Of a stretch of 55,624 nt of DNA, positions 1-53,702 are shown piece after piece (positions within the stretch are counted from its first letter, which is position 1; each line of letters begins with the position of its first letter). The notes below the pieces were generated by a model. It saw only the letters and a list, made by a program, of their open reading frames with translations, had not been told where the DNA came from and made no database searches. The stretch is from Candidatus Gastranaerophilales bacterium (GTDB lineage: Bacteria; Cyanobacteriota; Vampirovibrionia; Gastranaerophilales; Gastranaerophilaceae), in NCBI GenBank assembly GCA_944323145.1, contig CALURJ010000013.1, positions 1-55,624 on the forward strand, in the 5' to 3' direction. A program made the position numbers and the translations under genes.

Positions 1-1352
1 CATATAATCAGGGGGCAGGTTTTGGCGGGGATACTACTGTTGCGGTTGTTACAGAAAATGGTAACATTAATGATTTAGCAACACTTCTCAATGAAAACGG
101 TACCGCATATAGTATTACACAGAGTGATTTACCAACACAAAATCGTACAAATGCAAAAGGCGACGGAGATACATCAAGAATCAAGCTTGTTTATCAAAAC
201 GAAGATGGCAGCTACATTCATAGTACTACAGGTACTGATAATGTTTCATTTACGCTAGGAGATTTGTTAACCGGTAACAAACAATATATGTTGGGTTATG
301 AAGGAATAAGAGGTGAACAAAGCCCTGTATATGGTGTTGCACTGATGCAAAGTTATTTGATGAATGGTACAGAAACTACAGAAAGCATCATTGATTGGAT
401 GTATAATGAATTTTCAGCAATACTTGATTTAGGCGACGGTTATACAGGCAAAGCTCTTGAATATGCTTATACACAGGTTCAAAATCTTATTATGCCAAAT
501 GCAGAAGAATCACGTTATTGGTTAACAAAAAATCATGGAAAAGATACAGATGAAGAAACAGACTATAGAGCGGCTCCGGACGGAAAAGATGTAAGTGATT
601 ATTTAGAGTCATGTGGTAATAAGGTTGCTGGCAAAGGCGACCATGATGAGTATTACCAGCCAGTCTTTGTAGAACAGTCAACAGATTATATAGGTTTTAC
701 TTATGTCGGTTCAGGAAAGGGCGGCGGTGATGATGGTAATGACCATACTACAGGAGGTATAAACCTTAATAACATAGCAAAAGCATTTATTACATACTTC
801 GCAGATTACATGAACGGTGTATCTAAAAAGGATACAAATGGAGATCAGGTATTTTCTGTAGGATTAGGATTAACTAACAACTCTGATGTTAATAATCTAG
901 CAACAGATAACATACTTTATCAGTATACATTTAAATCAGACACTGTAGCAAGTGACGATTTAGGTCAGGCAACATTTTATGATACATTATTCAACCAGCT
1001 CTGTGCTAACGGCTGGACAGAAAATAACAATATAGAAGATAAAGAATATTTGCAGCAAATGCTACAAAGCGGAATGTTGTATATCTCAAAAGTCAAAGAT
1101 GACGGATATTACTATCAGGCTAACTATGCAACAGATTCTTATATAAAAGAAATTGCAGATGAAACCTATATTGCTCAGGCAGAAGCAAAATACAATACAG
1201 AAAAAGAAAAACTTAACGCAAAAGAAGAAACTCTTGATTTAAAGATGAAAAATCTTGATACGGAAATATCTTCTCTTACAACAGAATACGATACTGTAAA
1301 AAATACAATATCCAAAAATATTGAGAAATCATTCAAACGTTATAATGCATAA
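1..1352 (+). CDS. Coiled-coil protein of unknown function, 5' partial
   Basis: The reading frame is open from base 3 of the window, so the gene begins upstream and only its C-terminal part (about 449 residues) is seen; the TTG at 264 is not a credible start. The visible part is rich in Asn, Asp, Thr, Gly and Tyr, like a secreted or surface protein. It ends in a coiled coil (about the last 60 residues, Lys/Glu/Leu-rich) closing with ISKNIEKSFKRYNA. The 8748-9899 protein has a similar coiled coil with the ending VIEKNTESTFKTFG, so the two are paralogues. No enzymatic motif is recognised. The gene is convergent with the acyltransferase gene, 11 bp away. Function unknown; a secreted structural or surface role is inference only. 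Confidence 0.75.
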   Translation, partial: YNQGAGFGGDTTVAVVTENGNINDLATLLNENGTAYSITQSDLPTQNRTNAKGDGDTSRIKLVYQNEDGSYIHSTTGTDNVSFTLGDLLTGNKQYMLGYEGIRGEQSPVYGVALMQSYLMNGTETTESIIDWMYNEFSAILDLGDGYTGKALEYAYTQVQNLIMPNAEESRYWLTKNHGKDTDEETDYRAAPDGKDVSDYLESCGNKVAGKGDHDEYYQPVFVEQSTDYIGFTYVGSGKGGGDDGNDHTTGGINLNNIAKAFITYFADYMNGVSKKDTNGDQVFSVGLGLTNNSDVNNLATDNILYQYTFKSDTVASDDLGQATFYDTLFNQLCANGWTENNNIEDKEYLQQMLQSGMLYISKVKDDGYYYQANYATDSYIKEIADETYIAQAEAKYNTEKEKLNAKEETLDLKMKNLDTEISSLTTEYDTVKNTISKNIEKSFKRYNA

Positions 1353-2261: not shown

Positions 2262-2951
2262 TTAACTTCTTAAATACACATTTTTTATTTTTGTCTGTAA
2301 ATTTCCAATAATTAATTCAAACTCTTCATTTGAATAAGTTGATGCCGACATAAGATTTTTATCCAGAGTTTTTGAAGGTACAAATTTTTGAAGATAATAT
2401 CTTCCAGCTCCTTTTATTAAATCTGCAATTTTGTCAAAATCTTCAAAAACCAGCTGTTCTTTGACAACAGTTGTTCTGAATTCATAATCTACACAACCGC
2501 TCATTATTATATTAATACTTTTTTTTATATTTTCCGAATTTAGATTTAAGTTTACTATTTCAGGATATTTATAAAGAGGAGCTTTAATATCCATAGCAAC
2601 ATAGTCCACAAAAGGCAGAGCTTCTTTTAAAACTTCCGGCAGCGTTCCGTTTGTATCAAGCTTTACAAGAAATCCCAAATCTTTTATCTGTTTGATAAAA
2701 TCAACTAACCCGCGCTGCATGCACGGTTCTCCGCCCGTTATTACAACCCCGTCAAGTTTACCCTTTCTGGAGTTCAGAAATTCAAAAAAGCCGGCAGTTG
2801 TCCATGCCGGCTCCTTTTTCATGACAATTAATTCGGGATTGTGGCAGTAGCCGCATCTGAAATTACACCCCTGTGTAAAAACAATTGCGCTTATTTTATC
2901 GGGATAGTCTAGCAGTGAAGTTTTTTGAACCCCGCCTATCTGCATTGACAT
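2262..2951 (-). CDS. nrdG: Anaerobic ribonucleotide reductase activating protein
   Basis: A radical SAM activase that installs the glycyl radical on NrdD. The Cx3Cx2C cluster is CNFRCGYC (about residues 30-37), followed by the SAM-binding TGGEP (about residues 72-76). At 229 residues it is longer than E. coli NrdG and resembles the NrdG2 type of many anaerobes. It overlaps the end of nrdD by 16 nt, so the two are translationally coupled and share the cobalamin riboswitch upstream of nrdD. Identity is supported by both motifs and by the neighbour. Confidence 0.93.
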   Translation of the reverse strand: MSMQIGGVQKTSLLDYPDKISAIVFTQGCNFRCGYCHNPELIVMKKEPAWTTAGFFEFLNSRKGKLDGVVITGGEPCMQRGLVDFIKQIKDLGFLVKLDTNGTLPEVLKEALPFVDYVAMDIKAPLYKYPEIVNLNLNSENIKKSINIIMSGCVDYEFRTTVVKEQLVFEDFDKIADLIKGAGRYYLQKFVPSKTLDKNLMSASTYSNEEFELIIGNLQTKIKNVYLRS

Positions 2952-4786
2952 TCCTCGATTTTAAATTCTTTTCTGTCTGAAAATTCTTTCTTTTTGCCTT
3001 TATTCCACTGTTGAACAGGTCTTATATAACCGACGACACGGGAGTAAACTTCACATTGCTCTCCGCATTCAGGACATGTAAAATGTTCGCCCGCAACATA
3101 ACCATGGTTCGGGCAGGTGCTGAATGTCGGCGAAAATGTAAAGTATGGCAAATGATAATTATTACAAATCTTTTTAACAAGATTTTTCATAGTTTCCGGA
3201 CTTTGAATTCTTTCTCCGGCATAAATATGAACAACTGTTCCGCCTGTATATTTAGTCTGTAAATCATCTTGATGGTCAAGAACTTCAAAAATATCATCTG
3301 TGTAATTTACAGGCAATTGTGTTGAATTTGTGTAATAAGGGTATTTTTCTTTATCAAGTTTTGCTAGCCTGTAAGATGTTCCTTCAGCCGGAGTTGCTTC
3401 AAGATTATAATTGTTCCCTGTTTCCTTTTGAAACTCAACAATTTTTGCCCTCATAAAATCCATAACTTCAAGCGCAAACTGTTTTCCTCTAAAAGTTCCA
3501 ATATCACAGTTGAGAAGATTTAAACAAGCTTCATTCATACCTATCAAACCTATAGTTGAAAAATGGTTTTTCCAGTAAACACCGAAGCGTGCTTTAATAT
3601 CTCGCAGATAAAATTTTGTATAAGGATATAAATCTTTATCAGTTAAATCCTCAAGTAATTTACGCTTAATCTCAAGACTTTCTTTTGCAATTTCCATTTT
3701 TTGTGCAAGTTTTTCAAGGAATTCACCTTTAGTCTTTGAAATTTCGGCAATTTTGGGAAGGTTAATTGTTACAACCCCGACCGAGCCTGTAAGCGGATTA
3801 GACCCGAAAAGTCCGCCCCCTCTGTATTCAAGTTCCCTATTGTCTATTCTTAAACGACAGCACATAGAACGGGCATCCTCCGGCGACATATCCGAATTAA
3901 TAAAGTTTGAAAAATACGGAATACCATATTTAGCAGCCATTTCCCAGAGGCCTTTGATATTTTCGTTATCCCAGTCAAAGTCTTTTGTAATATTATAGGT
4001 TGGAATAGGGAATGTGAAAACGCGTCCTGAATTGTCCCCTTCCATCATAACTTCAAAGAATGCCTTATTAAGCATATCCATTTCTTTTTGGAATTCCTTG
4101 TAAGTGCGTTCTTGGAGTTCTCCCCCTATTATAACAGGCTGTTCAGCATAATAAGAAGGGACTGTCAAATCCATTGTAATATTGGTAAAAGGAGTCTGAA
4201 ATCCGACACGGGTCGGAACATTCATATTAAAAATAAATTCCTGCAGCGCCTGTTTAACCTGCTTATAGTCCAAATTATCATAACTTATAAAAGGAGCAAG
4301 AAGCGTATCAAAATTTGAAAAAGCCTGAGCTCCCGCAGCTTCTCCCTGCATTGTATACATAAAATTAACAATCTGCCCCAGAGCAGTTCTAAAGTGTTTT
4401 GCAGGCGCACTCTCAATCTTTCCTCTTACACCGGTAAAACCTTCAGTTAACAAATCTTTTAAATCCCATCCTACACAATAAACAGATATAATATTTAAAT
4501 CATGAATATGAATATCACCATTAAGATGTGCATTTTTTATCTCTACAGGATAAATCTTGTTCAGCCAGTATTGCTTGCTGATTTCAGATGAAATATAGTT
4601 ATTTAAACCCTGAATAGAATATGCCATATTGGAATTTTCATTAACCTTCCAATCAAGCTGTCTTAAATAACTGTCGACAAGATTAATGTTCGAATCCTTA
4701 TCGGATACAAAAGCATTAGACATAAACGCTTTTTTAGCGGAACCTAAATTGACAACTTTGTTGTCATTAAAAATTGCATTTTTCAT
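2936..4786 (-). CDS. nrdD: Anaerobic (class III) ribonucleoside-triphosphate reductase
   Basis: Makes dNTPs from NTPs with a glycyl radical. The ATG at 4786 was chosen over the longer frame at 4852 because GGGAG precedes it by about 10 nt and the extra 22 residues run into the riboswitch. The 616-residue product has the glycyl-radical segment RVVGYIRP (Gly about residue 586). Just before it is a zinc site made of two cysteine pairs, CPNHG and CPECG. The catalytic core motif MCCRLRIDNRE is present. The protein begins almost directly with the catalytic domain; the N-terminal ATP-cone that gives dATP feedback in E. coli NrdD (712 residues) appears to be missing. It overlaps nrdG and lies behind a cobalamin riboswitch, so expression should fall when B12 is plentiful. 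Confidence 0.95.
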   Translation of the reverse strand: MKNAIFNDNKVVNLGSAKKAFMSNAFVSDKDSNINLVDSYLRQLDWKVNENSNMAYSIQGLNNYISSEISKQYWLNKIYPVEIKNAHLNGDIHIHDLNIISVYCVGWDLKDLLTEGFTGVRGKIESAPAKHFRTALGQIVNFMYTMQGEAAGAQAFSNFDTLLAPFISYDNLDYKQVKQALQEFIFNMNVPTRVGFQTPFTNITMDLTVPSYYAEQPVIIGGELQERTYKEFQKEMDMLNKAFFEVMMEGDNSGRVFTFPIPTYNITKDFDWDNENIKGLWEMAAKYGIPYFSNFINSDMSPEDARSMCCRLRIDNRELEYRGGGLFGSNPLTGSVGVVTINLPKIAEISKTKGEFLEKLAQKMEIAKESLEIKRKLLEDLTDKDLYPYTKFYLRDIKARFGVYWKNHFSTIGLIGMNEACLNLLNCDIGTFRGKQFALEVMDFMRAKIVEFQKETGNNYNLEATPAEGTSYRLAKLDKEKYPYYTNSTQLPVNYTDDIFEVLDHQDDLQTKYTGGTVVHIYAGERIQSPETMKNLVKKICNNYHLPYFTFSPTFSTCPNHGYVAGEHFTCPECGEQCEVYSRVVGYIRPVQQWNKGKKKEFSDRKEFKIEECQCR

Positions 4787-4810
4787 AATAAAAAATCTCC
4801 CAGATTTCCG

Positions 4811-4944
4811 TGGTAACATCAACTTCTGCAAGCATTCCGACTTTCTCACCAAATTTGGGAGGTCATGTACAATTTTTAAATTGTACAGAGGACACGGCTG
4901 CGGTCCAGTGTGGGAATTACACCCATGCTTTCCTTACAGGAGTA
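4811..4944 (-). promoter_or_regulatory. Cobalamin riboswitch upstream of nrdDG
   Basis: Read on the minus strand, the region holds the conserved cobalamin core. GGAA is followed by the hairpin TGGGTGTAATTCCCA and then CCGCAGCCGTG (plus-strand 4893-4934). The 3' B12-box-like sequence AGTCGGAATGCTTGC lies at plus-strand 4826-4842. A peripheral hairpin with 10-bp arms (TGTACAATTT, plus-strand about 4866-4887) lies between them. The leader ends close to the nrdD Shine-Dalgarno, where AAATCT-GGG-AGATTT can form a small stem that would hide it. Family membership follows from the core match to the known riboswitch consensus. Ligand-dependent repression of a B12-independent reductase is the known logic for such sites. 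The outer limits are estimates. Confidence 0.85.
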
Positions 4945-4950
4945 ACTATA

Positions 4951-4979
4951 ATTTTATAGCTTTGCTTAAAATTTGTCAA
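4951..4979 (-). promoter_or_regulatory. Sigma-70 promoter of the nrdDG riboswitch leader
   Basis: On the minus strand TTGACA (plus-strand 4974-4979) is followed after 17 nt by TAAAAT (4951-4956). A start near 4944 begins just before the conserved riboswitch core. This gives nrdDG its own promoter, separate from the upstream GNAT-like gene. Confidence 0.75.
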
Positions 4980-4998: not shown

Positions 4999-5724
4999 TT
5001 ATATTTTATAATCAATACCATGTTTGGAAAAAAGAGCATTAAAGAAGTCTTTATTTCCCTTGATTGTCTCCTCTGTTAAAGTCATATCCATTGTCCATCC
5101 AAATTGGTGCTGCTTTATATTTTTCTCCGATAATGCGCGTGTTATATATTCTTTAATAAGCTCATTTGCAGGTCTGCACATACTTCTTTGTTTTTCGCCG
5201 GATAAAATATTTTTTATTTGTTCGGTAAAAATTTTTGCCCGCTGTGATAAATCTTTAAAATCAGGAGACTTATCATCTGCGATTGTTTTTAAAAGTTTAT
5301 CTCTGTCATGAAATGCCGTTACTGAAGGCTGAAATTTATACTTTGCGTGAAAATAAACTGCAGTGCTTTTGGATTTTATAGAAAAATTTTTAACTTTATT
5401 TTCAAGCATTTGAATTATACTTGCAAGTCTTAAAATTTCACCTAAATAATAATTTCTTTGTCTGTATTCCTCATTAACATTTATATATAAACCCGTCATA
5501 CTTTCTGTACCCTCAAAGTGAGAGTAATGTTCAAAACCTAATAAATGTCCGAGTTTATTTTTCAATTCTATAATAAACCTGAAGTTATTGTCATGAGTAA
5601 ATTTTTTTGTATTAATAAACAGGTTACCTGCTTTGTTCTCAAGAACTTCAAACGAACACAATTTTCTTGTATCATCAGGTCTATACAGTCTTATAACAGG
5701 CTTTACCAAATTAATTTTGTTCAT
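4999..5724 (-). CDS. GNAT-like acetyltransferase-related protein
   Basis: The ATG at 5724 is chosen because AAGG lies 5 nt upstream; the longer frame to 5769 has no ribosome site. The 241-residue product resembles the GNAT fold. A strand GLYINVNEEYRQRNYY and helix LGEILRLAS suggest motif A, and STAVYFHAKYKFQP resembles the motif B Ax2FYx2xGF segment (about residues 125-140). The C-terminal 100 residues are helical and unrecognised. Substrate unknown. It lies upstream of nrdD on the same strand, but a strong promoter lies between them, so a functional link is not implied. Confidence refers to a real gene; the fold is tentative. Confidence 0.65.
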   Translation of the reverse strand: MNKINLVKPVIRLYRPDDTRKLCSFEVLENKAGNLFINTKKFTHDNNFRFIIELKNKLGHLLGFEHYSHFEGTESMTGLYINVNEEYRQRNYYLGEILRLASIIQMLENKVKNFSIKSKSTAVYFHAKYKFQPSVTAFHDRDKLLKTIADDKSPDFKDLSQRAKIFTEQIKNILSGEKQRSMCRPANELIKEYITRALSEKNIKQHQFGWTMDMTLTEETIKGNKDFFNALFSKHGIDYKI

Positions 5725-5799
5725 AAATGCCTTAAAAACATAAAAATATAAATTTTTGTTATATATCATAAAATTTATTTAATATTTAAACATAATAAA

Positions 5800-5828
5800 T
5801 TGACTTACAAACTTGCTTATTTTAATCT
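5800..5828 (+). promoter_or_regulatory. Possible promoter of the riboswitch-controlled operon
   Basis: TTGACT (5800-5805), a 17-nt spacer and TAATCT (5823-5828). The -10 is poor (3 of 6 to consensus), but position fits: a start near 5835 begins exactly at the riboswitch core. A 14-bp palindrome CTCTTAATTAAGAG (5827-5840) overlaps the start region. Confidence 0.45.
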
Positions 5829-5835
5829 CTTAATT

Positions 5836-5987
5836 AAGAGGAAATGGAGTGAATATCTCCAGCTGCTGCCGCAGCCGTAAAAGCCGGAACACTCAAAGAA
5901 TACACAAAATAACCTGCGTGCAGTCCGGGTATGTGTAAAATATATTTCTTTGAGTCCTCTATTTTTCTAAAATTAGAGGATTTTTTC
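5836..5987 (+). promoter_or_regulatory. Cobalamin riboswitch with Shine-Dalgarno-masking hairpin
   Basis: The leader carries the cobalamin core: GAGGAA, the stem-loop TGGAGTGAATATCTCCA, then GCCGCAGCCGTAA (5838-5880). A 3' box AGTCCGGGTATG follows at 5922-5933. A perfect 10-bp helix can form between ACTCAAAGAA (5891-5900) and TTCTTTGAGT (5946-5955), enclosing the box. Immediately after comes the hairpin TCCTCTA / TAGAGGA (5955-5961 with 5974-5980) followed by six T. The GAGGA of its 3' arm is the Shine-Dalgarno of the next gene, 7 nt before the ATG. The hairpin could therefore act as terminator, as translation block, or both. The core is compact, with little room for the usual 5' stem. Regulation by B12 is inferred from the family. 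Confidence 0.82.
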
Positions 5988-6686
5988 ATGTCAGTTACAT
6001 CTCTACAAACAAATAGTACACGAGCCGGTACATGTCCCCACGGACTGCCGTTAGGAGCATGTCCTATATGTAACGGGATGTCAGGCGGGGGCGGAATAAA
6101 AAAAGCCGACTTTTCCGCAAAACCGGGCGAAATGAGTTGGAATGAATGCGCTGCAATAGGAGCTTTTTTAAAAGCACAACAGCAGGCAAAACTTCAAAGA
6201 GAACAAGATGCACAAAATTTCGCATTAAGAGTGCAGGCTTTTCAAAACGCACTTATGAATTCAAGCCAAAAATTAGCCAATATTGCACAGTTTTTTTCAA
6301 ATAACACTCCCGCAATAATTGCAAAACCTCTAAATTTTGTATTAAATACAGTCCTCGGAGGGCTTGCAAGAACAATTGCAAATCTTCCGGCAGCTATCTC
6401 CAATACTATACAAACAATTCAGCAAAAACTTGCTGACATATCCGACAAACTGACAGCAATGATGGGTGAATTGAAAGCCTCAATAGAAAAGAAAATATCA
6501 GATGCTTTCAAAGATTTAAAAAAGAAAGTCAAATCATTGTTCTCAATATTTCAGCCTCTTGACGCAGATAATGACGACAAACAAATTGATGAAACCCAAA
6601 AAGCTTTTGAATTAAGAACATTCATACATGAACTTTATAAAAAGCTGACTCAAAACGAAAAGGATTTAGAAGAAAATGACGATTAG
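5988..6686 (+). CDS. Unknown protein with CPHG-CPIC motif, B12-riboswitch operon
   Basis: The ATG at 5988 has GAGGA 7 nt upstream; the longer frame from 5931 would start inside the riboswitch. The 232-residue protein opens with a low-complexity segment holding CPHGLPLGACPIC (about residues 15-27), a Cx7-8Cx2C arrangement that could bind metal, then GMSGGGG. Next is a helical Ala/Gln-rich region, and about residues 105-140 form a hydrophobic stretch (PLNFVLNTVLGGLARTIANL). The rest is a Lys-rich coiled coil. No catalytic family is recognised. It is the first gene of a three-gene operon (11-nt overlap with the next) whose only functional clue is the cobalamin riboswitch. Confidence 0.8.
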   Translation: MSVTSLQTNSTRAGTCPHGLPLGACPICNGMSGGGGIKKADFSAKPGEMSWNECAAIGAFLKAQQQAKLQREQDAQNFALRVQAFQNALMNSSQKLANIAQFFSNNTPAIIAKPLNFVLNTVLGGLARTIANLPAAISNTIQTIQQKLADISDKLTAMMGELKASIEKKISDAFKDLKKKVKSLFSIFQPLDADNDDKQIDETQKAFELRTFIHELYKKLTQNEKDLEENDD

Positions 6687-8151
6687 CCCGCTCAAAGACA
6701 GTGAAACTGTCAGACAACAGAGGAATTTAACCAATTCCCAAAAACGCGCAAACTCTGAAACAAAAGAGGGCGTCCTTGTTAATAATTTTATAAAAGACGA
6801 TACAGGAACAAACCTTGACAACACCTGCGACACTCTCGTTATATCCGAAAGCGTAAAAATGCCCTCAAGGCTTTATGAAAAAAATCCGGATAAATCAAGT
6901 ATATTACCTATAAGCGCAGTAACAATCGGAGTTATGGGCGCAATTGCTCTTATGTCCGCGTTTGTAAGACGCAATACAAAAATTAATTTAAAAATTTCAA
7001 ATGAAAAAAGGCTTCCAGCAACTACAAGAAATGTCGCACTTAATGAAGAAACGCATCAGGCGCTGTATCAAATGATTCAAAGTCCGACCAGAAAAACAAT
7101 TCATGCCGGAATCGGAGTGCTAACTCTTACTGCTATGGCGTTTATGGGTAAAACTTTCTTTGACGGATTTAAAGAAGTTTGGGTTAAAAAGCGTGAGGCT
7201 GATATACAAAAAAATATGCAGGAACAATTGATAAACATAGAAACCCAGTCTTTTGCGGGGAAAATTCAGATAACAAGAAGCATGCTCTCTGAAAAAGCAC
7301 GCGAATTTAGCAAATATCTTTCTGACGACAAAGACAAAATCCTTCCGAACTTTGGGAAACACCTGCAATTTACGGGAAAAACAAAAAATAAAGAAGACTC
7401 CAAAAAAAATAATATGAATTATTTTTTGCTTGGAGCAGCAACTGTTGCAGGAATTGTCGGACTCGGTTATTTATCATTAAGAAATTTAAGCAAAAGCAAA
7501 AACTACCTTGAAAAAGCAGTAAAAGAAACTGAAAATAAAATTACGGATATTGTAAAAAATTCATCAACTAAAACAAAAGATAACGATAAAAAATTACTTG
7601 AAGCATATTTACAATCAATAGATGCAAAAGAGGGAACAATAAAAAAATATCTGGAAAATCTAAATTGGGATAAAGGCGAACTCAATGAATTTATACAAAA
7701 ACTGGTAAAAAAATCAAAAACCTCAACAACAAAAGTAAATGAAACAATAGGCGGCGACGGAACCCCAAAACCCACATTCTATTCTCACGTAGACGATTAC
7801 AGAGCCTTTTTCTATAACTGGCTTCTGGATACTGATAATAAGCAGTTTAAGCAATTATTCTTCGGAATAACAGGACTTACCGCCCTGAGTTACGGAGGGA
7901 AGCTTGCAGGAGAAGCTATAAAAGAAGTTCAGGTAAAAAAATTAAATGCACAAACAGAAGTTGAGCTCCAAAACAGGCTTGTATCAACAGAGTTAAGAAA
8001 TTTTAAGTCAAAAAAGGACGCAGCTATTCAGCCTCTGGTTGATGAGTTTTATAAACAGGTCGATAACGGAAAGCCAAAAGAAGAATTGAAAGTCATGGCT
8101 GAAAATATATTGTTAGAAATCAAAAACGGTCCGCCGTTTGTTTATTCATAG
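6676..8151 (+). CDS. Multi-pass membrane protein of unknown function
   Basis: 491 residues, overlapping the upstream gene by 11 nt. About four hydrophobic segments are visible: near residues 76-96 (ILPISAVTIGVMGAIALM), 142-160 (AGIGVLTLTAMAFMGKTF), 247-267 (YFLLGAATVAGIVGLGYL) and 393-412 (FFGITGLTALSYGG). Long polar, Lys-rich, helix-forming regions lie between them. Two of the segments are each followed by similar tails (FKEVWVKKREADIQ and IKEVQVKKLNAQTEVELQ), so the second and fourth membrane units look like an internal duplication. No transporter or enzyme motif is recognised. Its place in the riboswitch operon suggests B12-regulated expression; function unknown. Confidence 0.82.
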   Translation: MTISPLKDSETVRQQRNLTNSQKRANSETKEGVLVNNFIKDDTGTNLDNTCDTLVISESVKMPSRLYEKNPDKSSILPISAVTIGVMGAIALMSAFVRRNTKINLKISNEKRLPATTRNVALNEETHQALYQMIQSPTRKTIHAGIGVLTLTAMAFMGKTFFDGFKEVWVKKREADIQKNMQEQLINIETQSFAGKIQITRSMLSEKAREFSKYLSDDKDKILPNFGKHLQFTGKTKNKEDSKKNNMNYFLLGAATVAGIVGLGYLSLRNLSKSKNYLEKAVKETENKITDIVKNSSTKTKDNDKKLLEAYLQSIDAKEGTIKKYLENLNWDKGELNEFIQKLVKKSKTSTTKVNETIGGDGTPKPTFYSHVDDYRAFFYNWLLDTDNKQFKQLFFGITGLTALSYGGKLAGEAIKEVQVKKLNAQTEVELQNRLVSTELRNFKSKKDAAIQPLVDEFYKQVDNGKPKEELKVMAENILLEIKNGPPFVYS

Positions 8152-8159
8152 AGGTTAAG

Positions 8160-8639
8160 ATGTATAGTTACATTACACCCGTATATAATTACAATATTGT
8201 ACAGTATAAACCGTGCGAACTGCCTTCGGGCAACAGAAATTATACACTTTTCGACCGGAACAAAGTTGACTGTTTTGTTTCTCAAAAAGAAGCAGCTTTG
8301 CCATATCTTGCAGATATACTAGTTCATTCAAATAATGAAGCCCAAATAACAGAAACACTGTATATTATCGACAGAATGGCAGATTCAGGCGTTAAAGGCA
8401 TTGATAAAATGTATCCTGTACTCTCGCGTTTCAACAATACAACATCCCCTAATATTCAGACATTTCTTGCGGGAATCTACAGAAAAACACAGGTTCCTGA
8501 TGCATTCGGTCCTCTTGTAAAGATGTTAATTCAAAATTCTCTGCGTCCACAAACTTCAAATTTTGATCCGAATGAAGAAATCGGAGGAGCAATCCTGTCT
8601 TACATTTCAGACCGTTTTAAAAGCAAGCCGCAAAATTAA
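8160..8639 (+). CDS. Unknown helical-repeat-like protein
   Basis: 159 residues, 8 nt after the membrane protein gene with AGAGG as ribosome site, so the third gene of the operon. The middle (about residues 50-130) is made of short amphipathic helices, for example LYIIDRMADSGVKGIDKMYPVLSRF and a following repeat-like segment, which resembles a small HEAT-type repeat. There is no signal peptide or membrane segment. Function unknown; a soluble scaffold for the membrane partner is only a guess. Confidence 0.75.
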   Translation: MYSYITPVYNYNIVQYKPCELPSGNRNYTLFDRNKVDCFVSQKEAALPYLADILVHSNNEAQITETLYIIDRMADSGVKGIDKMYPVLSRFNNTTSPNIQTFLAGIYRKTQVPDAFGPLVKMLIQNSLRPQTSNFDPNEEIGGAILSYISDRFKSKPQN

Positions 8640-8747: not shown

Positions 8748-9899
8748 ATGGGAATGGCAGCGTCACAAGCTAGATTTTTAGGTCTGACAGCCAGAAAAAC
8801 CAATGTTGAATTTGAAGGTCAACAGATTAACCAACAAAGAACAACATTGTCTAACCAGTCAGCAAATTACTATAACGATTTGCTCGGTATGTCAGTACCT
8901 GTACCGCCGTCTGTCGATGACTACACAAAAACTGTGTATACTTTCGAAGACGGAGCTTTAACAAACCAGATTACTGCAATGATTGCGCAAACTGATGGAA
9001 CTTACACAGTAAGCTATACAAGACAATGGAAAGATGATTTCTCTGTTGTTACAGCAGCTACAAGTATCGTCAACAGGAATCAAAATGGTAATGATGACCC
9101 GTCCGATGATATTTACAAAGTCGGTTCTACGACTTTAAGAAATATGTCAGATGCAATCACTTATAATATTGGCGGTCAAACAGCTTACTATAATCCGTCC
9201 GATAAACAATATTATACTACAGCAGATTTCCAACAAGGTACCAATATAGATACAAAAGACAAGGAAATAACACTTAACAGCGATGATGAGTACCTTAAGA
9301 GTTTATCAGCCGACCAGCTTGCTAATTTGCAAAAAGAAGAAGAACAATATCTTGAACTTCTTAAACAAAAATATGGCGACGGCGACTATATGATTAGATA
9401 TATACAAAATTCTTCAACAGGTGAGTATGTTCCTTACTTCTACAAAAAATCCGATTTAGAAGTTGCAAACTATGACGCTAACGGAAACTCACAGTCAAAT
9501 ATTAACTGTTATACAATCGGCAGTGAAACAAAAACTGAAGAAGTTAAGGCTACAGAAGGATGTAGACTTGAAAAAGACAGTTCCGGACGTTATATTAACA
9601 TAACAATACCAAGCGGAGATGGAAAAACTGAAACAACTTATTCATTAACAACATCTACAGTCACTGATCAGGCCGCATACGAAGATGCAATGAATCAGTA
9701 TGAATTCGACAAACAGGAATACGATCAGGCAATAAATGATATTAACGCAAAAATCGAAATCATTCAGGCTCAAGACAAAAACCTTGAATTAAGATTGAAG
9801 CAACTTGATACAGAACAAGATGCTATACAAACTGAAATGGATGCAGTTCAAAAAGTTATTGAAAAGAACACAGAATCTACATTCAAAACATTCGGTTAG
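8748..9899 (+). CDS. Coiled-coil protein of unknown function, paralogue of the first gene
   Basis: 383 residues; GAAAGGAAG lies about 11 nt before the ATG. The N-terminus MGMAASQARFLGLTARKTN, followed by a Gln/Asn-rich helix, has no classical signal peptide. In pattern it is reminiscent of the N-terminal helix of flagellar hook-associated proteins, though no flagellar motif can be assigned. The middle is Asp/Tyr/Thr-rich and probably beta-structured. About the last 65 residues form a coiled coil ending VIEKNTESTFKTFG, related to the end of the 1-1352 protein. Own transcription unit: a 108-bp gap lies before it and a hairpin GGAACG-TAGC-CGTTCC just after its stop. Secreted or surface location is inference. 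Confidence 0.8.
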   Translation: MGMAASQARFLGLTARKTNVEFEGQQINQQRTTLSNQSANYYNDLLGMSVPVPPSVDDYTKTVYTFEDGALTNQITAMIAQTDGTYTVSYTRQWKDDFSVVTAATSIVNRNQNGNDDPSDDIYKVGSTTLRNMSDAITYNIGGQTAYYNPSDKQYYTTADFQQGTNIDTKDKEITLNSDDEYLKSLSADQLANLQKEEEQYLELLKQKYGDGDYMIRYIQNSSTGEYVPYFYKKSDLEVANYDANGNSQSNINCYTIGSETKTEEVKATEGCRLEKDSSGRYINITIPSGDGKTETTYSLTTSTVTDQAAYEDAMNQYEFDKQEYDQAINDINAKIEIIQAQDKNLELRLKQLDTEQDAIQTEMDAVQKVIEKNTESTFKTFG

Positions 9900-46494: not shown

Positions 46495-46581
46495 GGAGAG
46501 GTGTCCGAGTGGTTTAAGGTGCGGATCTCGAAAGTCTGTGAGGGGTAACACTCTCCGTGGGTTCGAATCCCACCCTCTCCG
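46495..46581 (+). tRNA. tRNA-Ser (anticodon CGA)
   Basis: 87 nt class II tRNA: acceptor GGAGAGG / CCTCTCC with discriminator G, anticodon loop CTCGAAA, a long variable arm and the T-loop GTTCGAATC. CCA is not encoded. The reverse strand gives the familiar RGWDSNPR spurious ORF. The Mu-like element begins about 70 nt downstream. Confidence 0.97.
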
Positions 46582-46995
46582 TTTTTTGGGGCACGCAAGG
46601 GTCTTTTTTATGTGGCGGGATGAGAACCACTGTATTGAAGAGAGTGTTTTGCGTATGACAGATGGTGCGATTATTTCGGGCAATCGGCTTGTGTAGCGGA
46701 TTTTAGGGGTAGGAAATAATCAAACCATGTGTACCATAAATACTCTTTTTACTCTTTTTCTACTCGGCACAGATGGTGTGATTATTTCGGGCAAAAGGAT
46801 TACAACCCTCTTTCTGCTTGTGTTTTAGGGCGATTAAGGCTTGGTACAAATGGTATGATTATTTTGGGCAAGTGAGTCGTTTGAGGTTTTTGAAAATTCT
46901 GCCGTTCTGTTAAATTTTTTAATTGATACGAAACCGACACAATGCTCGGAAGTAGTGTTCCAATTCTTCATCTTCAGAGTTAATGTGTGTGTACC
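46582..46995 (+). other. Left flank of the Mu-like element, no gene
   Basis: About 410 bp without an ORF. It holds three transposase-binding-like repeats (46657-46871). It also holds a 14-bp near-repeat TGTGTACCATAAAT (46728-46741), which matches TGTGTACCATGAAT at the transposase start codon (46988-47001) except for one base. A T-rich tract follows the tRNA. The boundary with chromosomal DNA must lie between 46582 and about 46657. Confidence 0.65.
46657..46871 (+). repeat. Three 27-bp direct repeats, putative transposase-binding sites
   Basis: Copies at 46657-46683, 46768-46794 and 46845-46871 share the pattern ACARATGGTRYGATTATTT followed by YGGGCAA. Starts are 111 and 77 bp apart. Three like-oriented sites ahead of a MuA homologue mirror the L1-L2-L3 layout of phage Mu. 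A TG dinucleotide at 46656, before the first copy, would fit a TG...CA terminus. Confidence 0.82.
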
Positions 46996-48984
46996 ATGAA
47001 TGAATATGTAACTATTAAAGAAATCGCACAGGCTAAGGGGTTAAAGAGCACTCGTTCAATCCGAATGGAAATCAACAAACCTGAAAGCAAATATATTTCA
47101 AGGGAAGTCAAAGTTAACGGCGGTATCTCATACGAAATATTGTTTTCAAGTTTAGAACCTGAATTACAACAAAAACTTCGGGAATGCGAAACAAAATCAA
47201 CGGCAATTGTTCCGTTGAATTACAAACCGCCTATTATTACAGATAAAGCAAGACAGACGGCAAATCACAGAATGAACATTGTTAAAGCCGCACTTGAACA
47301 CAGAAATAAATATCCGAGTATAAAAGAGGCTGATGCTGAATTTTTAGACCTGTATAATTCTGGATTGTATTTACCAAAAGCATACGAATTTCTGGGCCGT
47401 ATTTCAATCGGAACATTAAGAAGATACATACAAGCCTACAAGAAAACAGGCAACGCAGAATCCCTAATACCTCAATACAAAATAACAAAACAGGGTGAAT
47501 ATAACAGCATTTTAGATGACAATATGAAAAAAGTTCTGCTTGCTCTTTTACTTCATCAGAATAAATTCGGGTACAATACGGCAATCAGGCTTGCAAAACA
47601 AGTGTTGATTAAAAAAGGATATGATGAAGATGCTCTGCCGAGTAATATAACTTTTAAACGGTTTGCGGAGCATTTCAGAAAAAATAATTATGCGGAATGG
47701 GTGTTAAGACGTGAGGGTATGAAAGCCTACCACGATAAGGTTGAACCGTATATTGAAAGGGATATAAGTAAAATAGAAGTTGGAGATGTGTTAATCGCAG
47801 ACGGACACGTTCTCAATTTTCAAGTAATAAATCCGTTTACAGGAAAACCGACCAGAGCAACTTTGGTCGGTTTTTTAGACTGGAAGTCAACAGCTCTTGT
47901 CGGCTATGAAATTATGATGACTGAAAATACTCAGTGCATAGCCTCTGCCCTTAGAAATGCAATTATTAATTTAGGTATTATCCCGAAAGTAGTTTATCAA
48001 GATAATGGTAAAGCATTTAAGGCAAAGTATTTTCAATCTTGTGATTTTGACGAGGAGTGTTTTAACGGAGTGTATGCCAATTTAGATATTCACTCCGTTT
48101 TTGCTAAACCATACAATGCACGTGCAAAAGTTATAGAAAGATTTTTCTTAGATTTTCAGGAAGAATTTGAAAAACTTATGCCAAGTTATATCGGCACTTC
48201 AATTGAAAACCGTCCTGCGTGGATGAATAGAAATGAAAAACTGCATTTACAACTTCATAATCAACAAACAAAAGGAAATATTCCGACAGTACAAGAGACT
48301 ATTAAATATATTAATGCCTGGCTTGAATACAGGAATCAAAAAGCCTGTCCTAATGATCGTTCAAAGAGAATTCAAGAGGTATTAAATTCTGTTCGGAAAC
48401 AAGATATTAATAAATCTGCACTCGATTATTTAATGATGCAAACAGAATCACGAACTATAAATAAACACGGAATAACATTTCTCGGAATGCATTACAGGAG
48501 TGACGTTATACTTGGACTTCGGGATAAGGTTTATGTCAGATATAGCTTATTTGATCTTTCAAAGGTTCATGTTTATTCAATGAAAGGTGAATTTTTATGC
48601 GTGGCTCACAGGGTACAAAAAGTGCATCCGATGGCAAATATTCTTGGCACAGTTAAAGATATGGAGGAATACAAGCAGCAGTACCAAAAGCAACAGAAAA
48701 TTAAAAGCAGACTTATCAAACAAATTAAAAAGACATTTACTAAAGATGAACTTCAGGTTTTAGAAATTGAACCGGAACCTGTTTTGGAAATAGAAGAACA
48801 ACCAAAGCCGAAACGTGAACATAAGCAAACACCTCGTGAACAGCAGATGAACGTGCCGATGTTTAATTCAAATTATGAAAAATATGAATGGTTGATGACA
48901 AACGGAACAACAAATCCGCAGGATAGAAAGTGGCTTGCGGATTATATAAAAAGCGATGAATATTACAACTTATATGGAGATTAA
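46996..48984 (+). CDS. MuA-type DDE transposase, module 1
   Basis: 662 residues from the ATG at 46996; a GTG three codons earlier is possible. The N-terminal winged-helix DNA-binding domain (about 1-60, VTIKEIAQAKGLKSTRSIRM) resembles the Mu end-binding domain. A further helical DNA-binding region follows (about 75-210). The RNase H-like catalytic core has Asp269 (IADGH), Asp336 (YQDNGKAFK) and Glu381 (IERFF). A beta-barrel Mu C-terminal domain is at about 475-550. The acidic and Lys-rich tail (about 580-660) could contact the ATPase, as in MuA. No good Shine-Dalgarno. The ATPase gene follows after 3 nt. Confidence 0.92.
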   Translation: MNEYVTIKEIAQAKGLKSTRSIRMEINKPESKYISREVKVNGGISYEILFSSLEPELQQKLRECETKSTAIVPLNYKPPIITDKARQTANHRMNIVKAALEHRNKYPSIKEADAEFLDLYNSGLYLPKAYEFLGRISIGTLRRYIQAYKKTGNAESLIPQYKITKQGEYNSILDDNMKKVLLALLLHQNKFGYNTAIRLAKQVLIKKGYDEDALPSNITFKRFAEHFRKNNYAEWVLRREGMKAYHDKVEPYIERDISKIEVGDVLIADGHVLNFQVINPFTGKPTRATLVGFLDWKSTALVGYEIMMTENTQCIASALRNAIINLGIIPKVVYQDNGKAFKAKYFQSCDFDEECFNGVYANLDIHSVFAKPYNARAKVIERFFLDFQEEFEKLMPSYIGTSIENRPAWMNRNEKLHLQLHNQQTKGNIPTVQETIKYINAWLEYRNQKACPNDRSKRIQEVLNSVRKQDINKSALDYLMMQTESRTINKHGITFLGMHYRSDVILGLRDKVYVRYSLFDLSKVHVYSMKGEFLCVAHRVQKVHPMANILGTVKDMEEYKQQYQKQQKIKSRLIKQIKKTFTKDELQVLEIEPEPVLEIEEQPKPKREHKQTPREQQMNVPMFNSNYEKYEWLMTNGTTNPQDRKWLADYIKSDEYYNLYGD

Positions 48985-48987
48985 TCT

Positions 48988-49704
48988 ATGAAGAAAACAT
49001 TTATTAAAACAAAAAACGTCAAGCGGTTTGTGGCTTTGATGGATGAGTTGCAGAAACTTCCGCCGAACATTCCAAAACTTGCATTAGTTTACGGCGACCA
49101 TGGGCTTGGAAAATCTCAGACAATCCAGTGGTGGGCAGATAAAAACGATTCTGTATATGTTCGGGCAACGCAAGGGATGACGAGCAGATGGCTTTTATCT
49201 GAAATTGCGGAGGAACTTGGAGAAGAACCTTACTGGCATACGCAGGAAACATTTGAACTCATAGAGAATTATTTAAGGCAGAATCCTAAAATAATTATTG
49301 TTGATGAGATTGATTATTTGATTGAAAAACATACGGTTGAGACTTTAAGGGATTTGCACGATAGGACAGCTTGTCCGATAGTTCTAGTCGGAATGGGGGC
49401 GGCTGACAAAAAACTTGCAAGATATCCGCATCTTGTAGATCGTCTGTATAAAACTTTGAAATTTGAACAATTTAATGCTGAAGATATAACCGAGATTCTT
49501 CAACAAATAACCGATTTGGAGTTTACTCCTGATGCAATAAATTACCTTACAACAAGGACAAACCAATTCAGGCAACTGGTTAAGTTGATTAATAAAATAG
49601 AAAAACTGTCTGAAACAAACAAAATTGATGAGATAGACGAATATACATTGAAAGGATTATTAAATGAAAGACAGAATCTTAAGGCTTTGCAGAAGGTTGG
49701 ATAA
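48988..49704 (+). CDS. MuB/TniB-type AAA+ ATPase, module 1
   Basis: 238 residues, GGAG upstream. Walker A GDHGLGKSQ (about 36-44), Walker B IIIVDEID (about 98-105), sensor-like LVGMG, and a C-terminal helical lid. Such ATPases coat target DNA, select insertion sites and activate the transposase. It lacks the N-terminal helix-turn-helix of MuB that the second module's ATPase has, so it resembles TniB or TnsC-like proteins in length. The next gene overlaps by 41 nt. Confidence 0.9.
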   Translation: MKKTFIKTKNVKRFVALMDELQKLPPNIPKLALVYGDHGLGKSQTIQWWADKNDSVYVRATQGMTSRWLLSEIAEELGEEPYWHTQETFELIENYLRQNPKIIIVDEIDYLIEKHTVETLRDLHDRTACPIVLVGMGAADKKLARYPHLVDRLYKTLKFEQFNAEDITEILQQITDLEFTPDAINYLTTRTNQFRQLVKLINKIEKLSETNKIDEIDEYTLKGLLNERQNLKALQKVG

Positions 49705-50338
49705 ATTTACACTTGATGAGATTTCAACTATTGCTGAAGATGTTGATGAGGCTGTTTTAGAGTTACTTCTCTTGACATTGGTTAAAGAGGGAAAATTAAC
49801 TTTAAGAAATGACCTGTATTTTTATAATAAACAGAGTTTTAATAAAAAATATTCCATATTATCTTATTATCCGGCAAAGATTTTGGATATTGTAATACGG
49901 TGTTTTTGCCTTTCAATTCCGGCATATAAAGCCAAAGACGTAATTGGTATTGCAGAAAGTTCTACGATGCAATTATATTATATTTTTAGGGAGTTAATTT
50001 ACGAACGGCAGACAAATAAATTAAAATCACTATATGATAAATCTCCGCAGCAAGGCAGAAACAGAATTTTTTACGATGAGGAATTTTCTTTTTATGTTTA
50101 CGATAATCAGGTCTTTGTAAGTGAAAAATCATTTCAAAGCCCTGAAGAAAAAGCATTTACAAAACCTGAAATTCAAGAATTCAAAAAGGTTTACAGTTAT
50201 CTGACGAGATTTACCTCTCACAATTCAAACAAAGTTGACCTGCTGCAAAAACTCGCCGAGGGAATCTGGAGGAGAAACAAGGAATTTGAGGAACTTTATT
50301 TTGATTTAAAAGTTAATTTACTTAATATTTCTTCATAA
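49664..50338 (+). CDS. Third gene of transposition module 1, unknown function
   Basis: 224 residues, overlapping the ATPase gene by 41 nt, hence translationally coupled. The N-terminal 55 residues look like a winged helix (LDKFTLDEISTIAEDVDEAV, LTLVKEGKLTLRNDLYFYN). A second helical region with possible helix-turn-helix character (IPAYKAKDVIGIAESSTMQLYY) follows at about 90-115. The rest is mixed and Phe/Lys-rich. It is not TniQ, as the zinc cysteines are absent, and not a recombinase. It might be a targeting or regulatory factor; this is inference from position. Confidence 0.75.
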   Translation: MKDRILRLCRRLDKFTLDEISTIAEDVDEAVLELLLLTLVKEGKLTLRNDLYFYNKQSFNKKYSILSYYPAKILDIVIRCFCLSIPAYKAKDVIGIAESSTMQLYYIFRELIYERQTNKLKSLYDKSPQQGRNRIFYDEEFSFYVYDNQVFVSEKSFQSPEEKAFTKPEIQEFKKVYSYLTRFTSHNSNKVDLLQKLAEGIWRRNKEFEELYFDLKVNLLNISS

Positions 50339-50682
50339 ACTTTTCCCCGATTTTTTTAATAGTCCTTATCCTTTTTGTTATCTGATTTTAAAGTAAATAT
50401 AAAAAATTCGTTCATTTTTTCTGTTCCTGTTATTACTGTTTTTTATTTTCAAAAGTCGGGGAATATTCCCCGCTGTTGAATTTTCGCCTCTTCCATATAT
50501 AAATAATTTTCATATAATTGAGTTATAGGTTAAAGATTTCCCGGTAGAGCCAGTCATATTGCCTTATTAGGCATTATTCTGCTGTGCAAAAAATACTGGA
50601 CAGTCGGCTTATAGAAAAATTTTCAAAATCTTATACAGCTTGATTATAGACAACTAACTATATCAAGAGAGGATTGAAAAAT
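50339..50682 (+). promoter_or_regulatory. Junction region between the two modules with 16-bp palindrome
   Basis: 344 bp without a gene. It contains the perfect palindrome CGGGGAATATTCCCCG (50457-50472) and a related half site TTCCCCGA (50345-50352) after the module 1 stop. A T-rich run follows that half site. The AGAGAGG ribosome site of the HTH gene closes it. The palindrome is operator-like. No reverse copy of the 27-bp end repeats is recognisable here, so I see no right end of module 1. Confidence 0.6.
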
Positions 50683-50898
50683 ATGTCAAATTGTGTTTAT
50701 TGCAAAAAACAAATTTTAACTAAATTTATTTTTTCCCTTTTGGATCTTAAATCAAAAGAAATTCAGATGGCTTTGAATATTTCCAAAAGTGTAGTAAGCC
50801 GCTATTTGACTGGGGAGAGAGGGTGTCCGGAAATTGACCTTTATATTATTGAAAAGATTTTCGGAATAAAAGTAAAGGATTACACAATTAATGAATGA
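50683..50898 (+). CDS. Small helix-turn-helix protein
   Basis: 71 residues from the ATG at 50683 (GAGAGG upstream; an in-frame TTG lies three codons earlier). A Cro/CI-type helix-turn-helix is visible: SKEIQMALNISKSVVSRYLTGER (about 24-46). The N-terminus has CVYCKKQ, a lone Cys pair that may bind metal. It overlaps the transposase start by 8 nt. By position it could be the module's repressor or the Mu Ner equivalent, acting on the upstream palindrome. Confidence 0.75.
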   Translation: MSNCVYCKKQILTKFIFSLLDLKSKEIQMALNISKSVVSRYLTGERGCPEIDLYIIEKIFGIKVKDYTINE

Positions 50899-52834
50899 AA
50901 CCAAGCAAGTAAAATCAAATATTCCGGCTTGGATTTCAATTCAAGAAGCGTGTAATCTTTTGAATGTCAAAGAGAAGACAATCAAAAATCGCTGCTACAA
51001 AGGTGATTTTATTTATAAAATTGAAGTAAAAGATAATATAAAACAAATTTTTATTCGTTATTCATCTTTACCTATATCAAAAAAAATTGACAACGAATCT
51101 GATAATAAAAAATATTCTGAAGCCCCTTTATGGTCACGCATTCAGGCAGATAAATACATAGATGTTATCCAAAAAAGTCTTTGTTTGAGAGGCAGAGCCT
51201 TAAAACTGTTCATCGAAAATTGGAATAAAAATAATCCTGATAACCAAACGTCTTATTCTTCCTTAATTAGAATGAGAAATAGATACTTTGCTTGTGGAAT
51301 AAATGGTTTACTATCAAGATATGGAAACAATTCAGGCAGATCAATAATAAAAGATTGCTATTTTGATTACTTCAAAAATTTGTATTTGATGGAGGGTGCT
51401 CCCTCTTTACAAACCTGTTGGGATTTGACACTTGGCTATGCAATGAGAGAAAACGGAGTTGAAAGAGTCAATTTCCCAAGTTGTTCAACCTTTAAACGCA
51501 GGTTAAGACGTGAAGTACCAAAACAAAGTATTTATTTAGCGAGATATGGGGAATCCGCTTGGAATAGGAAATACGGCAATTACATTGATAGAGACTACTC
51601 TACTGTAATTTGCGGTGAAGCGTGGGTTTCAGATCACGCTCAGATAGACGTTGCCTGTCTTACTCAAGACGGCAACGTTGTATTTCCTTGGGTTACAGCT
51701 TGGAGAGATTATAAATCAGGGAAATGGCTCGGTTGGATATTGCAATCAGGAAATCCAAATTCGGATCATATTTTTCAATCATTTTATTATGCGGTCAATG
51801 AATTTGGCTTACCTAAAGATGTCATCATAGATAACGGCAAGGACTATCGTTCGAAAGACTTTGCCGGCGGACGTCAATTTAAAGTTGAAACCAATCAACG
51901 CAAAACAAGGTCTATGCTTGGAGAATTGAATGTCAATGTACACTTCGCTCTTCCATATAATGCACAGACAAAACCAATTGAAAGAGATTTCTTAAAAATA
52001 AAGGAACTGCTCTCTAAACACTGTGTTGGATATCGTGGCGGCAATGTTGTTGAACGACCTGAAAAACTTGCAAAAGAGATTAAAGCAGGAAAAATCATTC
52101 CGTTTGAACAGTTTAAGGAAATATTTGACGATTTTGTGATTAATGTCTTAAACAAACGTCCGTCACAAGGTAAAAATCTTGCGGGATTATCACCAAACCA
52201 ATTATTTAATCAGGAATTTGCAGAAAAAATCAGACCATCAAAAGATGCTCTTAAATTGTTCTGCATGAGGACATCAAAAACATTCACAATTATTAGAAAC
52301 GGCATTAAGGATAATGAACTCGGTATTACTTATTGGGCTGATTGGATGGTTTCAAAAACGAGATTAAAGGTTTATCTCCGTCGGGATGTTCAAAATTACA
52401 AAGAGGCTTGGGCTTTTAGAGCCGATAATAACGAATTTGTCGGCAAAGTTACTGCGGTCAAAGCTGTTGCGGCTCTTCAAGCAGACGAAATTTCAAAAGA
52501 AGCTTTCAAAGAGGCTATGGCTATTAAAAAACGCAGTTTGAAGATTGCAAAATCATATATTAAACAAACTCGTGAGATTAGCCTTGAAGAAAAATGTGCA
52601 AATTATAAAGCCGCATACGCAAGCGTTGAAAAGCAAACCAAGCCAAAAGTTTCGTTAATCGCTAACACCAAAATGGATAAAGTTATTCAAAAAAGTAAAG
52701 AAATGGAATCCTTTGGGAAATACGATTTATCAATGTTTTTAAACGATAGCAAGCCAGAAGAAAAACCGCTCTATTTATACGAGACGGATAAAATTCTCGA
52801 TCAAGAATTAAAAGGAGTCGCCAATGGATATTAG
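50891..52834 (+). CDS. MuA-type DDE transposase, module 2
   Basis: 647 residues. N-terminal MuA-like winged helix (about 10-60, WISIQEACNLLNVKEKTIKNRCYKG). Helical end-binding domain (about 75-220). Catalytic triad Asp248 (VSDHAQID), Asp314 (IIDNGKDYR) and Glu364 (PIERDF). Mu C-terminal barrel (about 455-525) and a helical tail. It is clearly divergent from module 1's transposase: no long identical stretches, and different spacing from Asp to Glu. Overlaps the HTH gene and the next ATPase gene, as in a Mu-type operon. Confidence 0.92.
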   Translation: MNETKQVKSNIPAWISIQEACNLLNVKEKTIKNRCYKGDFIYKIEVKDNIKQIFIRYSSLPISKKIDNESDNKKYSEAPLWSRIQADKYIDVIQKSLCLRGRALKLFIENWNKNNPDNQTSYSSLIRMRNRYFACGINGLLSRYGNNSGRSIIKDCYFDYFKNLYLMEGAPSLQTCWDLTLGYAMRENGVERVNFPSCSTFKRRLRREVPKQSIYLARYGESAWNRKYGNYIDRDYSTVICGEAWVSDHAQIDVACLTQDGNVVFPWVTAWRDYKSGKWLGWILQSGNPNSDHIFQSFYYAVNEFGLPKDVIIDNGKDYRSKDFAGGRQFKVETNQRKTRSMLGELNVNVHFALPYNAQTKPIERDFLKIKELLSKHCVGYRGGNVVERPEKLAKEIKAGKIIPFEQFKEIFDDFVINVLNKRPSQGKNLAGLSPNQLFNQEFAEKIRPSKDALKLFCMRTSKTFTIIRNGIKDNELGITYWADWMVSKTRLKVYLRRDVQNYKEAWAFRADNNEFVGKVTAVKAVAALQADEISKEAFKEAMAIKKRSLKIAKSYIKQTREISLEEKCANYKAAYASVEKQTKPKVSLIANTKMDKVIQKSKEMESFGKYDLSMFLNDSKPEEKPLYLYETDKILDQELKGVANGY

Positions 52835-53702
52835 AGCCGAATTAAAAGATTTGATGGAATCTAAAAATTACAGTATAGCATACGTTTCAACCGCTACAGG
52901 GATTGCTAAGTCTACAATCAGTATGTGGATGAACGGTAATTACAACGGCAAAAACGATAAAATTACCGATGCTATAAATAATTTTATCCAACGTGAACAC
53001 GAACGTTCCGGCAACAGCGACCTGCCTTTTGTAGATATTTCAACGGTTAAATATATCACTGAAATCGGCAGACTGTGCCATACACAGGGTAAAATCGGAG
53101 TTTGTGTCGGTAAAGCCGGACTCGGTAAAACCGTTGCCGTAAAAAGATATACCAAAGAATTTATGGACTCAATCCTTATTGAAAGCGATTCAGGCTACAC
53201 TGCAAAATCTCTTCTCAAGGAAATTCACAGACGTTTAGGACTTTCCGGTAAGGGTTCGGTTTATGACTTGATGGATGAAGTCGTCAGAAAATTAAACCAA
53301 TCAGGCAGACTTTTAATTATTGATGAGGCTGAAAATCTTCCATATAGAGCCTTAGAAATTACTCGCCGGATCCACGATAAAACAGGTGTAGGTATTCTTT
53401 TAGTGGGTAGAGGAATTCTGTTAGAAAACCTGAAAGGTTACAACAATCAGTATGACCAGTTGTACTCAAGAGTCAAATTTACAAAAATTATAGACAAAAT
53501 TTTAATTCAAGACGTCATAAAAATTCTTGAATCTATCGGACAGAATACAAAACTGGCTGAAACATATCTTCAGTATTCGGATGGAAATACCAGAAGATTA
53601 GAACACTTAATTTCCCACAGTATCAGCATTGCCAAATTCAACGGTAAAGCGGAGGTCGATGATGCTGTGCTTAAACAAACTTCCAAATTATTAATGGCAT
53701 AG
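52824..53702 (+). CDS. MuB-type AAA+ target-activating ATPase, module 2
   Basis: 292 residues, the size of Mu MuB (312). N-terminal helix-turn-helix (about 1-60, YSIAYVSTATGIAKSTISMWMNG) as in MuB, then AAA+ with Walker A GKAGLGKT (about 96-103), Walker B LLIIDEAENL and LLVGRG, then a C-terminal helical domain. Binds DNA cooperatively and delivers targets to the transposase, giving immunity in Mu. Overlaps the transposase gene by 11 nt. Confidence 0.93.
   Translation: MDIRAELKDLMESKNYSIAYVSTATGIAKSTISMWMNGNYNGKNDKITDAINNFIQREHERSGNSDLPFVDISTVKYITEIGRLCHTQGKIGVCVGKAGLGKTVAVKRYTKEFMDSILIESDSGYTAKSLLKEIHRRLGLSGKGSVYDLMDEVVRKLNQSGRLLIIDEAENLPYRALEITRRIHDKTGVGILLVGRGILLENLKGYNNQYDQLYSRVKFTKIIDKILIQDVIKILESIGQNTKLAETYLQYSDGNTRRLEHLISHSISIAKFNGKAEVDDAVLKQTSKLLMA

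Follow-up and report, generated by a model that had tools for sequence, protein, structure and literature searches.

A cobalamin riboswitch aptamer precedes a conserved operon of three genes in Candidatus Gastranaerophilales

The stretch of DNA that we analysed, here called the window, comprises 55,624 nt of a Candidatus Gastranaerophilales genome. Directly downstream of a cobalamin aptamer, the window sequence carries a three-gene operon on the plus strand: gene A (5988-6686, 232 aa), gene B (6676-8151, 491 aa) and gene C (8160-8639, 159 aa), together referred to as ABC. The gene A protein contains a CPHG-x5-CPxC motif followed by a glycine stretch and then by predicted long helices. Residues C16, P17, H18, G19, C25, P26 and C28 are invariant in the family alignment (A1), so that the CPHG...CPIC motif pointed out in the initial annotation is a property of the whole family. 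The gene B protein has four predicted transmembrane helices, seen as hydropathy peaks, and a tandem duplication of a unit made of a membrane segment and a long helix. The two halves match each other with an hhalign probability of 98%, and the internal duplication described earlier is real. Gene C encodes a conserved soluble protein (family alignment A3) that is possibly armadillo/HEAT-like; its armadillo-like matches were weak only.

Searches of Pfam, NCBIfam, PADLOC, PHROG and PDB sequences with A, B and C returned only weak coiled-coil or helical matches and no convincing family. Within Pfam and NCBIfam, nothing above the curated cut-offs related the three proteins to the BtuCDF families, no match to the B12-independent isozymes MetE and NrdD was obtained, and other B12 or cobalt importers (ECF-type BtuM/CbrT, CbiMNQO), compared via these profiles alone, gave no match above cut-off. 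We rejected an assignment of gene A as a cobalamin adenosyltransferase; the match to PF01923 (Cob_adeno_trans) scored 13.4 bits against a cut-off of 24 (E 0.081) and was one of many weak helical matches. AlphaFold models were poor for both A (pLDDT 51) and B (pLDDT 64), and a Foldseek search with the latter model gave no match at E<=0.001. Downstream of gene C lies gene D (8748-9899, plus strand; N-terminus MGMAASQARFLGLTAR), a member of a lineage-specific family with extra copies nearby in some relatives. Gene D follows ABC in family f1 only, and the C-terminal part of another gene in the window (264-1352, plus strand) looks similar to it. Elsewhere in the window, reading of the translations identified two successive pairs of Mu-like transposase and MuB-type ATPase genes (46987-53702, plus strand) just after a tRNA (46495-46581), suggestive of a transposable phage or element, perhaps two.

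The leader of ABC was compared with the Rfam models of cobalamin riboswitches. The AdoCbl-II model (RF01689; cut-off 36.5 bits) matched positions 5825-5900 of the plus strand with a score of 42.0 bits and an E of 9.6e-7 over the window, and this was its single match in the whole genome. RF00174 also matched the leader (5805-5914, 25.6 bits), under its cut-off. Following RF01689, the aptamer core P3-P6 lies at 5836-5894 on the plus strand, with P3 at 5838-5840/5892-5894, P4 at 5845-5849/5857-5861, P5 at 5863-5865/5872-5874 and P6 at 5875-5877/5885-5887. Loop L5 (CUGCCG, 5866-5871) forms a kissing loop with 5917-5923 (CG-U-GCAG), the partner strand being located in a P13-L13 hairpin that we assigned from the sequence (5901-5937, plus strand).

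Covariation was analysed in an alignment of 44 leaders from relatives. P4 was paired in 100% of cells, with covariation in four of its five pairs. The L5-L13 kissing loop was paired in 94.8% of cells with three pairs changed on both sides, and matched variants were found in other lineages, where L5 reads CUGGCG and its partner CGCUCAG or CGCACAG. Inner pairs of P13 covary (CG/UA/GC/AU), while the outer pairs were paired in 48% of cells only. Taken together, the aptamer, the kissing loop and the Shine-Dalgarno (SD) hairpin described below were paired in 91% of cells, with 15 pairs changed on both sides. The covariation score was higher than in any of 500 shuffles and in any slid control, a comparison in which the shuffles overstate the signal since the leaders are kin. 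With RF01689 above its cut-off and with covariation in both P4 and the kissing loop, the cobalamin core is as clear as first described and, judged by its sequence, the ABC leader contains a cobalamin riboswitch aptamer.

A putative promoter lies at 5800-5828 on the plus strand (TTGACT at 5800-5805, a 17-nt spacer and TAATCT at 5823-5828). The T, A and final T of the -10 box are invariant in the 44 leaders; the promoter was absent from the output of a consensus promoter scan. The -10 box is probably at 5823-5828 and transcription probably starts near 5836. P1 as drawn by Rfam pairs 5825-5830 with 5895-5900, and its 5′ arm overlaps the putative -10 box. Consequently, the P1 5′ arm is probably not transcribed and the switch would start at P3.

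The aptamer is followed by a terminator-like hairpin that sequesters the SD (5955-5986, plus strand), with the anti-SD at 5955-5961, the SD arm at 5974-5980 and a U-run at 5981-5986. As the initial annotation had noted, the GAGGA that starts translation of gene A (5976-5980) is the 3′ arm of this hairpin; it is followed by UUUUUU and by the gene A ATG at 5988. The UCCUC/GAGGA core pairs are invariant in all 44 aligned leaders and the U-run is nearly so. Such invariance establishes conservation but is no proof of pairing in itself. The hairpin (5955-5980) was not reported by a consensus terminator scan, probably owing to the loop and G-C limits of the scan. Besides hiding the SD, the hairpin with its six U residues may be able to terminate transcription. 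A 10-bp helix with arms at 5891-5900 and 5946-5955 (5891-5955, plus strand) encloses the P13-L13 hairpin. It was first described as a perfect alternative helix and is indeed perfect in the window, but it is no alternative to the terminator, as the predicted fold holds both. It was paired in only 60% of cells among the 44 relatives (nine of the ten pairs counted) and so is a feature of a subclade.

Predicted folds of the leader suggest how these elements could be connected. Each of 200 dinucleotide shuffles folded less stably than the leader (z -3.9). As long as the SD hairpin lacks its 3′ arm, the nascent RNA is predicted to form a helix of AGAGGA (5837-5842) and UCCUCU (5955-5960) that stacks on the 10-bp helix. 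In the best unconstrained fold of the full-length leader the SD hairpin forms and the SD is already hidden, so that an open state would depend on the order of folding. The AGAGGA strand includes the 5′ half of P3 (GAG at 5838-5840, with CUC at 5892-5894). Pairing of the 5′ strand with the anti-SD hardly varies among the leaders, and covariation is uninformative for it; by eye, several relatives outside the genus have AAG in the 5′ strand and CUU on the 3′ side. The expression platform of those relatives differs, and some have separate terminator-like hairpins. The aptamer thus appears to have been kept while the expression platform changed between lineages, as expected if selection keeps B12 control itself.

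We propose that, when there is little B12, AGAGGA at 5837-5842 would hold the anti-SD (UCCUCU, 5955-5960) in a pairing stacked on the 10-bp helix, leaving the ribosome site open and no terminator formed. With cobalamin bound, the P3-P6 core would close, pairing GAG 5838-5840 with CUC 5892-5894, and L5 would kiss L13. The freed anti-SD would then pair with AGAGGA at 5975-5980, and the resulting hairpin with its six U residues would hide the SD and turn the operon off. We infer both the binding of the ligand and the order of switching.

The distribution of ABC was examined using gene B, which 182 of the 289 genomes sampled from the class contain. The carriers are 176 of the 188 members of the family to which the window belongs, the five listed order members from other families and, outside the order, a single genome whose match is weak. 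All named records with the operon are Candidatus Gastranaerophilales or unclassified gut genomes, and ABC appears to be a conserved operon confined to Candidatus Gastranaerophilales. In almost all loci that we read, gene A is accompanied by gene B, and C comes next in most families; gene C was not found in the loci read from family f3. All three genes are present in 78 of 80 named loci, a set that had been fetched with gene C.

Linkage of the operon to the switch is almost complete. Of 50 genomes that have gene A, 48 carry an Rfam cobalamin aptamer 27-349 nt upstream of it on the same strand. One genome (G039) has a recognisable aptamer with an enlarged P4 ahead of gene A; inspection of the leader of another (G052) revealed no recognisable switch upstream of gene A. 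A covariance model trained on leaders of this order, when applied to the 80 named loci, placed an aptamer just upstream of A in 79. In the 80th locus gene A was not found; gene B starts 172 bases from the start of the contig, whose end cuts the locus. The figure of 79/80 is a linkage count rather than an independent discovery, as part of the training set of the model came from the same species. The initial annotation had suggested checking whether homologues elsewhere are preceded by a B12 riboswitch, and had considered its proposal refuted should the operons of most relatives lack one. Nearly all homologues carry the switch. The initial proposal, a three-gene operon without known family relationships under the control of a B12 riboswitch, with the SD lying within the terminator-like hairpin, is supported. 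We regard B12 control of ABC as close to certain on these sequence comparisons, and repression by B12 as nearly certain.

A second cobalamin riboswitch is found on the other side of the locus. On the minus strand, the window encodes nrdD (2936-4789; Pfam NRDD 688 bits, NCBIfam PRK08270 991 bits), the anaerobic B12-independent ribonucleotide reductase, and nrdG (2262-2951), the activase of this class III enzyme, which was recognized by its position after nrdD and by a CxxxCxxC (CNFRCGYC) radical-SAM motif. The riboswitch upstream of nrdD (4810-4956, minus strand) scored 21.6 bits with RF00174, below cut-off, because its P6 loop is enlarged. The nrdD leaders of four relatives agree with its core at almost every base, and RF01689 matches in these leaders were above cut-off once and below it three times. 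In the window, nrdDG and ABC are divergent, each with its own B12 switch, and a divergent nrdD with its own aptamer is also present in at least seven related loci. Several ABC homologues are head to head with switch-controlled nrdDG. It was proposed earlier that a B12-element controls nrdDG, NrdJ being the B12-dependent counterpart, and that such elements repress B12-independent isozymes, nrdDG included (PMC545781). We also inspected 28 aptamers away from gene A and six more, naming their targets from translations except for the NrdD of the window, which was scanned. Most precede nrdDG, btuB-btuC-btuD, metE, cbiM/cbiN or cobT-type genes, and a few precede proteins without assignment. In L058, a locus of family f4, an aptamer on the reverse strand (1008-1102) lies upstream of a small ORF and a radical-SAM-like protein. 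Between nrdD and the ABC leader, the window has a gene for a 256-aa protein without a Pfam match (4999-5769, minus strand). The place of this gene is conserved in two related genomes; in other relatives, the nrdD and ABC switches are nearly back to back. A match to the Hatchet ribozyme within this ORF (5163-5267, minus strand; 28 bits against a cut-off of 51) is probably due to chance.

Gastranaerophilales are gut relatives of cyanobacteria, and nearly all of what is known of them here comes from genomes assembled from metagenomes. Judged by titles and abstracts, no paper evidently about B12 riboswitches in this order was found in the literature. In order to assess the B12 physiology of the order we used 56 members, chosen by hand so as to include the 12 family members without ABC. 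The B12-dependent reductase NrdJ was above cut-off in 38 of the 56, and the source genome of the window has it. MetH was above cut-off in four and QueG in none, and no CobS match was obtained in any of the 56. A BtuC relative was found in 10 of them, and most sampled ABC genomes are without one; ABC and btuC coexist in four genomes. The sample includes 33 NrdJ genomes of family f1; a BtuC relative is missing from 29, of which 26 carry ABC. NrdJ was absent in 8 of 12 genomes without ABC compared with 10 of 39 genomes with it (Fisher p 0.015, for a hand-picked sample and with phylogeny ignored). Two other indicators were discarded. Strong matches to the Pfam B12-binding domain (PF02310) were mostly to proteins of ∼470 aa, probably radical SAM proteins, in genomes with and without ABC; a joint loss of AdoCbl-II matches and ABC is no evidence, since the ABC switch itself usually is the match. 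From the gene content, Gastranaerophilales appear unable to complete B12 themselves and to need B12 from outside.

The operon encodes what may be described as a four-helix membrane protein (B), a helical protein with a Cys3His motif (A) and, in C, a small protein resembling helical repeats. All three would serve the acquisition or handling of corrinoids in bacteria that mostly use the B12-dependent NrdJ. Such a role is the most likely one and our best guess from the regulon, given that those switch targets of the order to which a function can be assigned take up B12, make it or replace it, and that the bacteria seem to rely on an external supply. The aptamer, kissing loop, SD hairpin and linkage are observed; for the full reading, in which B12 represses the operon through the switch described and the proteins act in corrinoid acquisition or handling, we estimate an even chance. 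A stronger version, that ABC is a new system by which gut Gastranaerophilales, dependent on the B12 of their neighbours, take up or handle corrinoids, with no relation to BtuBCDF or the ECF importers, is more tentative, and we hold it to be possible rather than probable. It counts against a corrinoid role that the sequences of A, B and C show no resemblance to transporters, ATPases or enzymes, that ABC coexists with btuC in four genomes and that one operon is without a recognisable switch. A simple importer model is disfavoured by three genomes that have NrdJ and neither ABC nor a BtuC relative, where assembly gaps are possible, and by ten ABC-bearing genomes of the 56-member sample without NrdJ above cut-off.

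The divergent nrdDG brings up a different role, in which the operon would support a B12-independent process when B12 is scarce, such as class III ribonucleotide reduction or the supply of a cofactor. The shared type of switch in the neighbouring nrdDG, the divergent arrangement in several species and the earlier proposal of nrdDG repression all agree with this role. However, neither an enzyme fold nor a catalytic pattern was recognised in A, B or C, nrdDG often lies at another place in the genome, and ABC occurs in sampled genomes without NrdJ, MetH or QueG above cut-off, which therefore have no evident B12 enzyme to spare. We consider B12 sparing unlikely. We give a similarly low probability to B12 acting as an environmental cue for the host gut or for neighbours, with the operon building an envelope or contact structure that has no part in B12 metabolism. 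A membrane protein with long helices next to a helical protein would suit such a structure, as would the repeated lineage-specific family of gene D, the next gene in family f1, and the PHROG tail and tape-measure matches to A, though these are weak helical matches; yet gene D is not conserved beside ABC outside family f1, and the assignable targets of B12 switches in the order are genes of B12 metabolism. That the aptamer has decayed, or that its linkage is mere inheritance of one ancestral arrangement with no B12 response today, is very improbable, for despite the single-lineage distribution, the P1 arm that is probably missing from the transcript and the one operon without a switch, the core bases are invariant while platforms were remodelled across families, and the kissing loop and P4 covary.

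With few recognisable BtuC proteins and no CobS match in the 56 genomes, most of which carry NrdJ, ABC, present in about 94% of sampled main-family members, is a direct and testable candidate for the supply of corrinoids in Gastranaerophilales. If the proposal is true, three protein families would be added to B12 biology.

Compared with known systems, the ABC leader shares the P3-P6 core of AdoCbl-II riboswitches (RF01689, clan CL00101), with a score above gathering, and has the L5-L13 kissing loop described for cobalamin riboswitches (PMC9600662). It differs from AdoCbl-II in that its transcript appears to begin at P3, the 5′ strand of the aptamer itself appears to hold the anti-SD and its target genes are not known B12 genes. 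The divergent nrdDG of the window carries a B12-element of the kind reported upstream of nrdDG (PMC545781); that regulation is already known, whereas ABC is not a ribonucleotide reductase. The BtuBCDF uptake system is likewise under cobalamin switches in several relatives. However, its families gave no match to A, B or C, which are found mostly in sampled genomes that have no BtuC relative.
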